Of a stretch of 21,950 nt of DNA, positions 5,829 through 9,929 are shown one piece after another. Position numbers and translations under genes: made by a program. Position 1 is the stretch's first letter. The number at the start of each line of letters is the position of its first letter. Source of the stretch: a virus; the IMG/VR virus record IMGVR_UViG_3300044910_000972, positions 1-21,950 of that record, one strand, 5' to 3'. The notes under the pieces are model-generated. The model worked only from the letters and a program-made list of their open reading frames with translations. It had not been told where the DNA came from and did not search any database.

Positions 5829-8800
5829 TTATCGACTGGTTAGGAAATTGATGTATGAATTTTCAGTTTTTATTCCAAATCCATTTAAATTTCCTGTCAT
5901 TTTTGAACGCATATATTCATCAGCTTCTTTATTTGTTTTTACTAAAGCTGAGAGTAATTCCACCTGTAATTTGTTTATATTATTGGTTTCAGTATTTATA
6001 TCCTTCAATTCTGTTAAATATGTTCCCATATCTTTTAAATATTCAGCTTCAGTTTTAGGTGTTTTAACATCTACTGAAGAGGTTTTTTGTTCTTCTTTAG
6101 CTCGCGACTTATCTTGTTGCGTTTCAGTATGAGGATTGACTACTGAATTCTGTTTAGCAACAGGTTCAGCAGAAGCTAATCCTGCCATTTCACTTATAAT
6201 TCCTGCTGCTGAATGAGAAGACAAATCTCCAAAAGCTGATATGCTATTAGTCGCAATATTTCTAGCTTGTTCTGCGGTTTTACCTTCAGCAATAAGAGAT
6301 TGAACTTTGTCAGAAACACTTTCAGTAGTTCCAACAATAGCATCACCAACTTTTCCAGGAACTTCTCCAACTTCTTTCCAAAATACATCCCAATCATTTT
6401 TCCAAGTTAATTCTCGCTGTTCTCCTCGTTTTTTAGCTTGAACATCATCCCAAGCATCTTTCATTAAACCACCACCTTCATACATTCCATAAGCTGCAGT
6501 ACCTATACCAGAAGCCCTTGCACCAATAGAAGCTGCACTTCCTATAAATCTACCAGCTGCTCCTATTCCCTTACCCATCATTGATTTAGCAGCTGCCCAT
6601 CTTCCTGTTTTCTTCGCAACTTGATCTCCGATTTTGTCAGAAGCTAAATCCTCAGCAACATCACCCAATGTATTTGCAATATTTCCCATTTCATTACAAC
6701 AACCAGAAGAACCTGTAACTGAACTTGCCATTGCTGATAATGCTCCACCTTTACCACCTCTTTTACCTTTTTTACCACCTTGTTTTTTTCTATTTCTTCT
6801 TCCTGAAGGACCGCCTTCCATAGTATCGCCAACTGATTGAGAAGAAGTTCTTACAGCATTTTCAACATTATTAACCGATGATACAACTTTTCCAGTTTCA
6901 ACAGCTTCTGCTTGAATTTGTTTTGAACCTGATGATTTAATAGCAGATGATATTTTACTAGCTGAACTTCCAATAGCTGTGACAACCAATCCAGAAATTA
7001 GAGCTCCAATACCTAAAATTGCCTTAACAACAGGGTCATTTAATCCAGTCATTATTTGAGCAATCTTTTTATTACCTTCAGCCATTACTTCAGGTATTTT
7101 ACTAAGTTGAGCTAATTCTTTAGCTCTATCTTCTGAAATTTTACCTTGTCCTTCTTCAGTTAAACTTGCTTCTCTACCAGCTTGCATAATTGATTTAAAA
7201 GGATCTGTCATTTCACCAATAACTTCTCCCAATTTTTCACCAGTAAAATCACCAAAAGCTGACATATCAATATGTTTTTGTAGTTCTTGAAGAGTCGCAG
7301 CTTGTTGCAATTTTTGTTGTTCTGAAGCTCTTGCTCCCATTAAGTGAGTATTGGCTGCCTGATCAGCACCTGCAATACCATACATCATTAGAGCTTGTTT
7401 TAACTTAGCAGCTTGACTAAATCTATCTGTTACTTTTTGTTTTCCTAATTCTTGCATAGCGACCATTGCTTTTTGTGCAGTTTGGGCTGACATACCCAAA
7501 TTAACAAATCGTTGTCTTAATTCCATCATATCCTTCATTTTATTCATTCGATCAACTTGATTTAATCCATTTAAAGTTGATTGAATATCATTATTGCCTA
7601 TCATTTCAGCAGTGAAAGATTTAAATTCTTCTATTGATGTTCCAGTTGTTGCTCGTAATTTACCAAATGCAGCAGTTTGCATTTGTATTGATTTTGTTAA
7701 TGTATCATTATCTCGAATGTTAATACCTGATAATGCTGCATTTTTTGTAAAATCTGCGGTAGCTTCTGCAGCTTCTAATTGATTTAATCCGTAAATTCTT
7801 AATTCTTTACCAGCACTTTCTAAAGTATTTTTAAATTTTTCGCCGCCAATAGAATTTAATACTCTAGTATTTTGTTGAAATATTTTTACAGCCTCTTCAA
7901 AAGATATACCTAATTCAACTTGAGCCCATTTAATATTATCCCATTGAGCATACATACCACTTTCACCAATTAAGGTCATTTGCTGCCATGCACCTTTAAT
8001 ACCATGGGCTAATAATCCCATTGCTGCGGTCAAAGCAGCCATTGGTCCTATACCAATACCTAAAGCTTTACCAAATACCCCTAATTTCTCTTTAACTTCC
8101 ATCATTGCTTTTATTTTAGCATATTCTTGGAATGTAGATTTTGAAATTGCTTTTACTTCAGCTTCAACACCTTTAATATGTTTTCTAATTGTGTCATCAT
8201 CAGCTTCCAACAATTTACTACTTTCAGCAAGTTTATACATTGCTCTTTCTTGTTGAGATAGTGAAGCTTCACCACTTTCAGCAACTTTTTTAGATAATTC
8301 TTTAAATACAGCGCTTAAAGAACCACCATTATCTTCCATAGCTTTCTTAAACGTAGAGGCTGCAACAGAAGCATCTCGTTGGGCATTATCTAAATCATTA
8401 ATAGTTGTTAATGCACCATCAAAATGTTTATTTAAAAATTTTAAATTTTTCGCTGAATTCATAATTTTATCAGAAAATTCATCGAATTTATCATTTTGTA
8501 ATCTATTATCTAATAAACTTGACAATACTCCAGATTGTTTTTTCAAACCAACATTTGCTTTTTTATATATTTTTAAAAATTGTTCTGCAGCATCTCCTGA
8601 TTGATAAACAGAAGATTGTAATGTCCTAAAAGCACCATCTAGCTTACCAACTGTAGATTTTATGGTTTTTGCTTGATCATCTAAAGCTTCATTAGATTTT
8701 GATAAAAGAGAATGTTCTCTTTTTCTTAAATCATTCAACATTTTCTGTAATTTCGGGTCATTACCTGAACCTCCCGAAGCTTTCAAAATACCTTCCATCA

Positions 8801-8843
8801 TTTTCATCATCTTATTAAATTGGTCTTGAGACATATCTGCCAT
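5829..8843 (-). CDS. Probable tail tape-measure protein (1004 aa)
   Basis: This long protein has the make-up of a tape measure: helical Lys/Glu/Ala/Gln-rich N-terminal and C-terminal thirds, and hydrophobic Gly/Ala-rich segments near residues 251-284, 602-630 and 754-791 that could be membrane-inserting. A basic Gly-Lys-Arg stretch lies near 670-700 (GGKKGKRGGKGG). T4 gp29 is 590 residues; at the usual roughly 1.5 angstroms per residue, 1004 residues would suggest a tail near 150 nm. A tail-chaperone-like gene starts divergently 83 bases away, which supports the call. No direct gp29 similarity is recognised. It could instead be another large internal virion protein. A late-type box AATAAATA precedes it; its ribosome site is weak. 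Confidence 0.65.
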   Translation of the reverse strand: MADMSQDQFNKMMKMMEGILKASGGSGNDPKLQKMLNDLRKREHSLLSKSNEALDDQAKTIKSTVGKLDGAFRTLQSSVYQSGDAAEQFLKIYKKANVGLKKQSGVLSSLLDNRLQNDKFDEFSDKIMNSAKNLKFLNKHFDGALTTINDLDNAQRDASVAASTFKKAMEDNGGSLSAVFKELSKKVAESGEASLSQQERAMYKLAESSKLLEADDDTIRKHIKGVEAEVKAISKSTFQEYAKIKAMMEVKEKLGVFGKALGIGIGPMAALTAAMGLLAHGIKGAWQQMTLIGESGMYAQWDNIKWAQVELGISFEEAVKIFQQNTRVLNSIGGEKFKNTLESAGKELRIYGLNQLEAAEATADFTKNAALSGINIRDNDTLTKSIQMQTAAFGKLRATTGTSIEEFKSFTAEMIGNNDIQSTLNGLNQVDRMNKMKDMMELRQRFVNLGMSAQTAQKAMVAMQELGKQKVTDRFSQAAKLKQALMMYGIAGADQAANTHLMGARASEQQKLQQAATLQELQKHIDMSAFGDFTGEKLGEVIGEMTDPFKSIMQAGREASLTEEGQGKISEDRAKELAQLSKIPEVMAEGNKKIAQIMTGLNDPVVKAILGIGALISGLVVTAIGSSASKISSAIKSSGSKQIQAEAVETGKVVSSVNNVENAVRTSSQSVGDTMEGGPSGRRNRKKQGGKKGKRGGKGGALSAMASSVTGSSGCCNEMGNIANTLGDVAEDLASDKIGDQVAKKTGRWAAAKSMMGKGIGAAGRFIGSAASIGARASGIGTAAYGMYEGGGLMKDAWDDVQAKKRGEQRELTWKNDWDVFWKEVGEVPGKVGDAIVGTTESVSDKVQSLIAEGKTAEQARNIATNSISAFGDLSSHSAAGIISEMAGLASAEPVAKQNSVVNPHTETQQDKSRAKEEQKTSSVDVKTPKTEAEYLKDMGTYLTELKDINTETNNINKLQVELLSALVKTNKEADEYMRSKMTGNLNGFGIKTENSYINFLTSR
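5993..6000 (-). promoter_or_regulatory. Candidate internal late promoter box (TATAAATA) upstream of gp20
   Basis: An exact minus-strand TATAAATA lies inside the 3' end of the tape-measure gene, about 180 bases before the portal start. It could give the portal gene its own late transcript. Being inside a gene in AT-rich DNA, it may be chance. Confidence 0.35.
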
Positions 8844-8925: not shown

Positions 8926-9702
8926 ATGTCAGATAATCCATTATTAACAAAATTACGTCTTCCAGGTAAAATGTATCAATTACCATCTAGAGGTATTTTT
9001 TACAAATTAGGTGAATTAGATCCTAATACAACTGATGCAGAATTACAATTTCATTCATTGACTGCTTTTGAAGAAATCACTATTAAGAATGTTGATTTGT
9101 TATATTCAGGAAAAGCATTAGGACAAGTGTTAAAAACAGCAGCTCCTCAAATTTTGAAGTCAGAAGAATTATATTCGAAAGATGTTGATGCTATTATGTT
9201 GTTTTTAAGATTAGCAACTTATGGTCCAGAATATGAATTAACAGTAAATCATGGTTGTGAACATGGCAAAACACATTCTTATATTGTTAATTTAGATGAA
9301 GTTGTTGGTCGTATGAAATATTTAGACCCAACTCGATTTGATATTGATTACAAAGTTAAATTAGATAATGGTCAAGAAGTTATTATTGAACCTATCAAAT
9401 ACAAACATGTAATTGAATTACTTCAAGAAAATGAAAATAAAACACAATTAACTGCTGATGATATGAAGAAAAATTTAGAAATGAGTATGCTAAACATTGT
9501 TAAAAGTGTTGATGGTATTGAAGATAGAGAATTAATAAAAGAATGGATTAGAAATATACCATCTAAGATTGCAAATCAAGTTGCGGAACGAATTGAATTA
9601 TTAAATGATTGGGGACCTGATTTAGTATATTCAGTGAAATGTAAAGATTGCGGAGAAACTTTTGATATTGAAATTCCAATTAACCCTATAAGCCTTTTTT
9701 AA
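8926..9702 (+). CDS. 26: Baseplate hub/tail assembly chaperone, T4 gp26-like
   Basis: The 258-residue protein resembles the T4 gp26 'base plate protein' family: an N-terminal KLRLPGKMYQLPSRGIFY segment, a LxxLTAFEEI-like stretch near residues 45-55, and a C-terminal CKDCGETFDIEIPINPISLF with a small CxxC. T4 gp26 (208 residues) is needed for hub assembly. The ATG at 8926 is chosen because GAGGA lies 5 bases before it; an in-frame TTG at 8914 overlaps that site and is rejected. Its neighbours are the divergent tape-measure gene and, downstream in the -1 frame, a small ORF in the position of T4 gene 51. The final codons run into a T6 tract, suggesting that a fraction of ribosomes may make a longer product. 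Confidence 0.85.
   Translation: MSDNPLLTKLRLPGKMYQLPSRGIFYKLGELDPNTTDAELQFHSLTAFEEITIKNVDLLYSGKALGQVLKTAAPQILKSEELYSKDVDAIMLFLRLATYGPEYELTVNHGCEHGKTHSYIVNLDEVVGRMKYLDPTRFDIDYKVKLDNGQEVIIEPIKYKHVIELLQENENKTQLTADDMKKNLEMSMLNIVKSVDGIEDRELIKEWIRNIPSKIANQVAERIELLNDWGPDLVYSVKCKDCGETFDIEIPINPISLF
9684..9702 (+). other. Candidate programmed -1 frameshift window joining the gp26-like ORF to the next ORF
   Basis: The zero frame ends CTT TTT TAA (9694-9702) over a T6 run at 9695-9700. The -1 frame is closed by TAA at 9681-9683 and then open through 9929, so any shift must occur within 9684-9702, which is just where the homopolymer lies. The P-site TTT at 9697-9699 can re-pair perfectly with TTT at 9696-9698 while TAA is in the A site. 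The joined protein would be 334 residues. It is not a canonical X XXY YYZ heptamer, and no strong downstream stem was found by eye. Confidence 0.5.
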
Positions 9703-9722
9703 GAAAGGTCCGCTCTGGAGAC

Positions 9723-9929
9723 ATGCAAGATATTCAACGAACCATAAAAAGACTTAACAAAGAAATTGAATTGTTAGTTAAGTCATGTTTAGAATTAAGT
9801 TGGTATTCTCGCGGAGCGTGGCCTTACGATCAAGTCCTGCAGATGTCAGCAGGCGAAAGAGATGTTGCTTTCACTTTTATTAATAAAAGATTGGAACAAC
9901 AGCAAAAAGTTAGTTATCCAGTTTATTGA
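9723..9929 (+). CDS. Small ORF in the T4 gene 51 position; possible 'T' domain of a tail chaperone
   Basis: This ORF encodes 68 residues if begun at the ATG at 9723, or 76 extra residues on the gp26-like protein if reached by -1 frameshift. It has an N-terminal helix (IQRTIKRLNKEIELL) and a YSRGAWPYDQVLQMSAGERD segment. This is reminiscent of the 'W(S)Y.x(I/V)x.M' C-terminal pieces made by frameshift in other tail chaperones. Its own ribosome site is poor: GGAG (9717-9720) is only 2 bases from the ATG. T4 gp51 is much longer (249 residues), so I do not claim homology, only matching position. It ends at a terminator shared with the convergent gene. Confidence 0.7.
   Translation: MQDIQRTIKRLNKEIELLVKSCLELSWYSRGAWPYDQVLQMSAGERDVAFTFINKRLEQQQKVSYPVY

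Follow-up and report, generated by a model that had tools for sequence, protein, structure and literature searches.

How the small open reading frame (ORF) behind a gp26-like phage gene comes to be translated is the question raised by positions 8,926 to 9,929 of a T4-like virus, in which the gene ends on a run of six T residues and the next ORF lies in the -1 frame. An earlier note proposed that a programmed -1 frameshift joins the two, giving a pair of tail chaperones like G and GT of other long-tailed phages. The DNA analysed, called the window below, is the 21,950 nt stretch at positions 1 to 21,950 of IMG/VR record IMGVR_UViG_3300044910_000972. Its remainder (215-21950) is T4-like, with genes for Gp23 capsid, Gp20 portal and gp46/gp47-like nuclease subunits, and also for a protein with sigma-70 region 2 at the place of gp55, a gp53 wedge protein and a baseplate OB-domain (gp5-like) protein.

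The gene pair and its junction

The features of the locus are as follows.
5829..8843, minus strand: tape-measure candidate of 1004 aa in divergent orientation, with a divergent homologue at the same place in relatives
8926..9702, plus strand: gp26-like ORF, predicted short form of the chaperone, 258 aa (coordinates include the stop)
9684..9929, plus strand: -1 ORF, open from 9684 and predicted to be read from 9699 onward as the long form's C-terminal domain
9693..9702, plus strand: putative slip site C_CTT_TTT_TAA, including the T6 run (9695-9700), in codon register with the T TTT TTY of 133 relatives
9717..9725, plus strand: GGAG and, at a poor distance of 2 nt, ATG 9723, the possible separate start of a 68-aa protein
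join(8926..9699,9699..9929), span 8926..9929, plus strand: predicted frameshift product, 334 aa
9751..9784, plus strand: hairpin inside the -1 ORF, about 50 nt past the slip site, from folding
Predicted fusion: ...PISLF followed by LRKVRSGDMQDIQ
Predicted junction peptide of the long form: DCGETFDIEIPINPISLFLR
Predicted C-terminus of the short form: DCGETFDIEIPINPISLF

The gp26-like protein matches Pfam family PF12322 (T4_baseplate; E=4.8e-8, 33.4 bits, above the curated cut-off of 24.5) and phrog_150 (E=2e-10). The tape-measure candidate is indeed its immediate divergent neighbour, as the earlier note held; this ORF has no Pfam or PHROG match, and its homologue occupies the same place in relatives.

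Direct reading of the zero-frame 3' end of the gp26-like ORF, ...ATT AAC CCT ATA AGC CTT TTT TAA, bears out the description in the earlier note, with the stop TAA at 9700-9702 on the T6 run, the following ORF in -1 and no stop between. TAA at 9681-9683 closes the -1 frame, which is then open over 9684-9926 up to its own stop at 9927-9929, and since the gp26-like frame ends at 9702 any -1 shift must fall within 9684-9702, the 19 nt originally delimited. A -1 shift leads from TTT 9697-9699 to TTA 9699-9701, and the product from ATG 8926 recomputes to the 334 residues first given (258 + 8 + 68, with 76 codons past the slip). The chaperones of lambda and P2 have standard slippery sites. In the window no standard heptamer X_XXY_YYZ lies in the gp26 frame, where the site reads C_CTT_TTT; T TTT TTA is present in the -1 frame only and was discarded as a heptamer.

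Frame relation, slip motif and RNA structure in relatives

A tblastn search with the gp26-like protein returned 50 phage records, mostly RaK2/121Q/CBB/GAP32-type jumbo phages, and 49 of the 50 alignments reach as far as the terminal Phe of the query. A small -1 ORF follows gp26 in 15 of 16 fetched loci, the -1 frame opening 13-76 nt before the gp26 stop in those 15; LR756508, at first sight an exception, belongs to a clade with a +1 relation. Cyanophages S-SM2 and P-RSM6 have the same layout, with the -1 ORF annotated 'baseplate hub assembly catalyst'. No relative turned up in a scan of bacterial genomes. The junction set comprised 136 distinct junctions, the window and 135 relatives (RaK2/121Q-type jumbo phages, cyanophages and IMG/VR contigs), and at all 136 the small ORF is in the -1 frame; identity of the gp26-like protein to its homologues is 20-52%. 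Among the evidence against a fusion that the earlier note had named were ORFs in unrelated frames and a -1 frame broken by stops; neither occurs among the 135 relatives, a separate and more distant clade being uniformly +1.

Conservation of the T run, proposed as a check together with the -1 overlap, is equally clear. T TTT TTY stands in the gp26 frame at the junction of 133 of the 135 relatives (T TTT TTC in 120, T TTT TTT in 13) and at 1 of 89 other Phe-Phe pairs of the same genes, which indicates that the motif is selected and no by-product of FF coding. In the codon alignment CTT TTT of the window sits at the TTT TTY of the relatives. The exceptions are the window (C CTT TTT TAA), L153 (A CTT TTT TCA) and L037 (G TTT TTT ATG). 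All three keep a T6 run in a different phase, and as they lie apart on the gp26-like protein tree, some nodes of which are weakly supported, the slip-site phase has probably been lost more than once. The slip at a stop codon without a standard heptamer was correctly noted for the window; judged on these sequences, it is a peculiarity of this phage and not of the family.

RNA folding was assessed on 50-nt segments against dinucleotide shuffles, starting 0-10 nt after the run and at control offsets. Mean z over 0-10 nt is -1.7 to -1.95 in cyanophages and -1.1 to -1.9 in window-like phages, and about -1.2 at 0-5 nt in jumbo phages, with control offsets mostly near zero; long hairpins lie directly downstream in relatives L141, L143, L144 and L145. 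The same check went against the window, which has no stem-loop within 10 nt of the slip site (z about +0.6). Its only strong hairpin, at 9751-9784 (z about -3.2 in the 50-nt segment from +40), is more stable than expected for its composition but was given no weight as a stimulator, being too far downstream for a usual one.

Relatives with T7 or T8 runs (L001, L002, L020, L022, L029, L031-L035, L148, L150 and L151) trend to less downstream structure than those with T6+C, a difference that is not significant (p=0.10); phages of this sort may depend instead on the extra run length or on slippage by the polymerase.

These observations bear on the view that slippage of RNA polymerase puts one extra U into the T6 run of the window and so fuses the gp26-like and small ORFs, which would yield the same protein. 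A T7 transcript would join the frames exactly, the run of the window is out of phase for tandem tRNA slippage, and the trend among T7/T8 relatives is in the same direction; however, in 133 of 135 relatives the phase of the run is the one that lets both tRNAs re-pair, and the stem-loops after it point to ribosomes, so that we regard transcriptional slippage as improbable. T6 is moreover short for polymerase slippage.

Probable reading of the -1 frame ahead of ATG 9723

No ATG, GTG or TTG occurs in the -1 frame of the window upstream of ATG 9723, and the eight codons before this ATG are therefore reachable only from the gp26 frame. Their residues, LRKVRSGD, outscore 999 of 1000 controls consisting of stop-free peptides from the window's own DNA. 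Against a fused-peptide profile of 39 relatives, with the window left out, the fused peptide of the window aligns gap-free across the junction at 103.1 bits, compared with 79.5 bits for the ATG-initiated ORF alone. A profile of the relatives' -1 ORFs, again without the window, picks out the window -1 ORF with E=5e-27, the database searched being small.

Independent synthesis of a 68-aa protein from ATG 9723, by its own ribosome site or by re-initiation, with no fusion and a decayed signal, would account for a window that has neither heptamer nor proximal stem-loop, and both the GGAG close to the ATG and the gp26 stop just 20 nt upstream would suit it. Yet the GGAG (9717-9720) is only 2 nt from the ATG, the poor spacing already recognised in the earlier note, the eight -1 codons ahead of it are still conserved in a frame that has stayed open, and among relatives the first -1 start is not at a fixed place, an SD-like motif preceding it at 3 of 136 junctions. 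We rate this slightly below even polymerase slippage. A sequencing or assembly error hiding a T7 run, where one extra T would fuse the frames into one continuous ORF or yield a canonical site, is very improbable, as the junction recurs in another IMG/VR record (L018, identical over 4195 nt and possibly not an independent assembly), a continuous gene would lose the short form kept by all relatives, and the -1 relation agrees with theirs. A DNA pattern scan for the exact junction of the window gave one identical record and two chance matches without a gp26-like gene.

With frame relation, slip position and fused peptide all conserved over large divergence, the comparative data strongly support a -1 frameshift fusion, and with it the central proposal of a G/GT-like pair. 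We consider it likely that the locus encodes a two-isoform tail-assembly chaperone whose long form would arise by a slip back of one base. We infer that this slippage takes place in the phage itself and that the ribosome is its agent. Most ribosomes would stop at TAA 9700-9702 and release the 258-aa short form, while in a minority Phe-tRNA on TTT 9697-9699 would slip by -1 and pair anew with TTT 9696-9698, in tandem with Leu-tRNA on C_CTT or alone with the stop in the A site. TTA would then be read instead of TAA, followed through the 76 codons to the 334-aa long form. In a tandem slip on C_CTT_TTT the Leu-tRNA would be mismatched at its middle base, whereas at a shifty stop (TTT then TAA) Phe-tRNA would re-pair perfectly, TTT to TTT; the protein is identical in both cases. 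Slow termination at TAA could supply the pause in place of heptamer and stem-loop. Given that both of these are lacking, the signal of the window may be weak or decayed.

Relaxed slip sites are known from dianthoviruses (G_GA) and IS3 (C_CA(A)) (PMC5009743), and these, with the 'shifty stops' of Weiss 1987 as listed there, resemble the window in a middle-base P-site mismatch or an A-site stop, though they belong to other genes and organisms. The RaK2/121Q/GAP32-type jumbo phages share the gene pair (a baseplate hub subunit and the small -1 ORF), the frame relation and, mostly, a divergent structural or tape-measure gene, but have T TTT TTC, or T7 in XacN1 and RAS14, and a zero-frame stop usually some codons past the slip site, where that of the window abuts it. 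The cyanophage gp26-gp51 pairs (S-SM2, P-RSM6 and about 80 IMG/VR relatives) likewise have the small -1 ORF and T6 at the gp26 C-terminus; unlike the window they combine a canonical T TTT TTC with downstream RNA structure, and their tape-measure-like ORF is directly downstream instead of divergent.

Kinship with T4 gp26/gp51 and a clade in +1

PF12322 matches T4 gp26 (9e-64) and also residues 1-201 of T4 gp51 (4e-52), which makes the two paralogues. Both the C-terminal part of T4 gp51 (1e-23) and the cyanophage -1 ORF (3e-30) match phrog_634, and the latter has a further match in the final columns of phrog_150. The -1 ORF of the window gave no direct phrog_634 match; its link to this domain runs through the cyanophage -1 ORFs and through a pooled -1 ORF profile that matches both the window and, weakly, T4 gp51 (E=0.0025). 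Alignment by hhalign of single T4 sequences with the alignments of relatives gave no useful match; curated profiles did match. T4 gp51 thus combines a PF12322 domain with a C-terminal domain common to the cyanophage -1 ORF, and represents the fused long form as a gene of its own, gp26 being the short form; T4 makes its long form from a second, divergent gene, and the window would make one from a single gene and a change of frame. The 'gene 51 position' that the earlier note gave to the small ORF fails as a T4 map position, as T4 gene 25 follows gene 26 and gene 51 is divergent from it, but stands by homology, the -1 ORF probably corresponding to the gp51 C-terminus. A T4 short/long tail-assembly chaperone pair was reportedly described by Vladimirov et al. 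in 2022, an account cited in PMC10885494 and PMC12846349 for the short/long chaperone pair of T4-like phages. In the T4 literature gp26 and gp51 are listed as hub-assembly chaperones, and gp51, whose function is unknown, as essential yet missing from the finished particle (PMC3004832). A comparative paper remarks on the absence of the first ~200 residues from cyanophage gp51 (PMC3037559).

In the window the gene lies beside the divergent tape-measure candidate, and its short ORF is followed, with no stop between, by an ORF readable only by a change of frame, an arrangement of the G/GT type. Bacillus phage SP-15, Listeria phage LIS04 and Flavobacterium phage immuto each have their gp26-like gene flanked by tail tube and tape measure, the classical place for a chaperone. 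The window pair is, on sequence grounds, probably a tail-assembly chaperone of the lambda G/GT kind. Lambda gpG/gpGT and P2 E/E' likewise comprise two isoforms made by -1 frameshifting near the end of the short ORF, beside the tape measure (PMC5009743), with no detectable sequence homology to the window pair. As judged by lambda G/GT and T4 gp26/gp51, the role of the short form would be to coat the tape-measure protein, and the long form would use its C-terminal domain to help in recruiting tail-tube subunits. AlphaFold models the gp26-like protein at pLDDT 90 and the -1 domain, which is helical, at pLDDT 88. Among the PDB matches listed by Foldseek the best probability, 0.35, belongs to the HK97 chaperone gp13 (2OB9), a weak match that is not significant (E=1.6, TM to target 0.47), and the fold search gave no structural match for the small -1 domain.

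A homologous tail domain lies in the +1 frame in LR756508, Microcystis phage Mel-JY01, immuto, Streptococcus phage GXN1, SP-15 and LIS04, the -1 ORF profile matching the +1 frame of these loci, several weakly. Among IMG/VR relatives of immuto type all 57 distinct junctions are +1, most of them reading TTT (C/T)TT TGG CCT GAC. Known +1 sites include CUU_UGA of prfB, which the immuto-like junction resembles. This points to a sister clade that may shift by +1 at the corresponding position, and, given that all 57 are +1 there, the direction of the frameshift seems to have changed within one family. The +1 loci, all 3' ends of gp26-like genes, are L158, L007, L157, L159, L161, L162 and L166-L245. 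In L160 (LR756511) the motif T TTT TTC is present and the -1 frame is open, but the match to the tail-domain profile is not significant (E 0.2-0.6).

It is tempting, if somewhat short of probable, to see here one chaperone family with constant short/long output whose decoding has changed repeatedly: -1 on T TTT TTY in jumbo phages and cyanophages, +1 near YUU_UGG in immuto- and SP-15-like phages, duplication in T4, and a shifty stop, TTT before TAA, in the window. In that event competition with release factor would set the short/long ratio in the window. Frameshifting in tail chaperones is known; what is new is a putative stop-abutting slip site without heptamer or proximal stem-loop. The window thereby offers a natural experiment on the least that a slip signal needs in order to work, as the +1 clade does on a lineage changing frameshift direction with both products kept. 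The long-puzzling T4 'hub assembly catalyst' gp51 is tied by this to the G/GT scheme, and the small ORF that follows gp26 in cyanophages and jumbo phages, whether called 'gp51', hypothetical or left unannotated, is most likely the frameshifted tail of gp26.

In RaK2 (L015, about 2190-2417) and PA5oct (L024, after 2346) the -1 ORF is present and unannotated; most other records carry it as a separate hypothetical protein, its start often placed downstream of the conserved segment.
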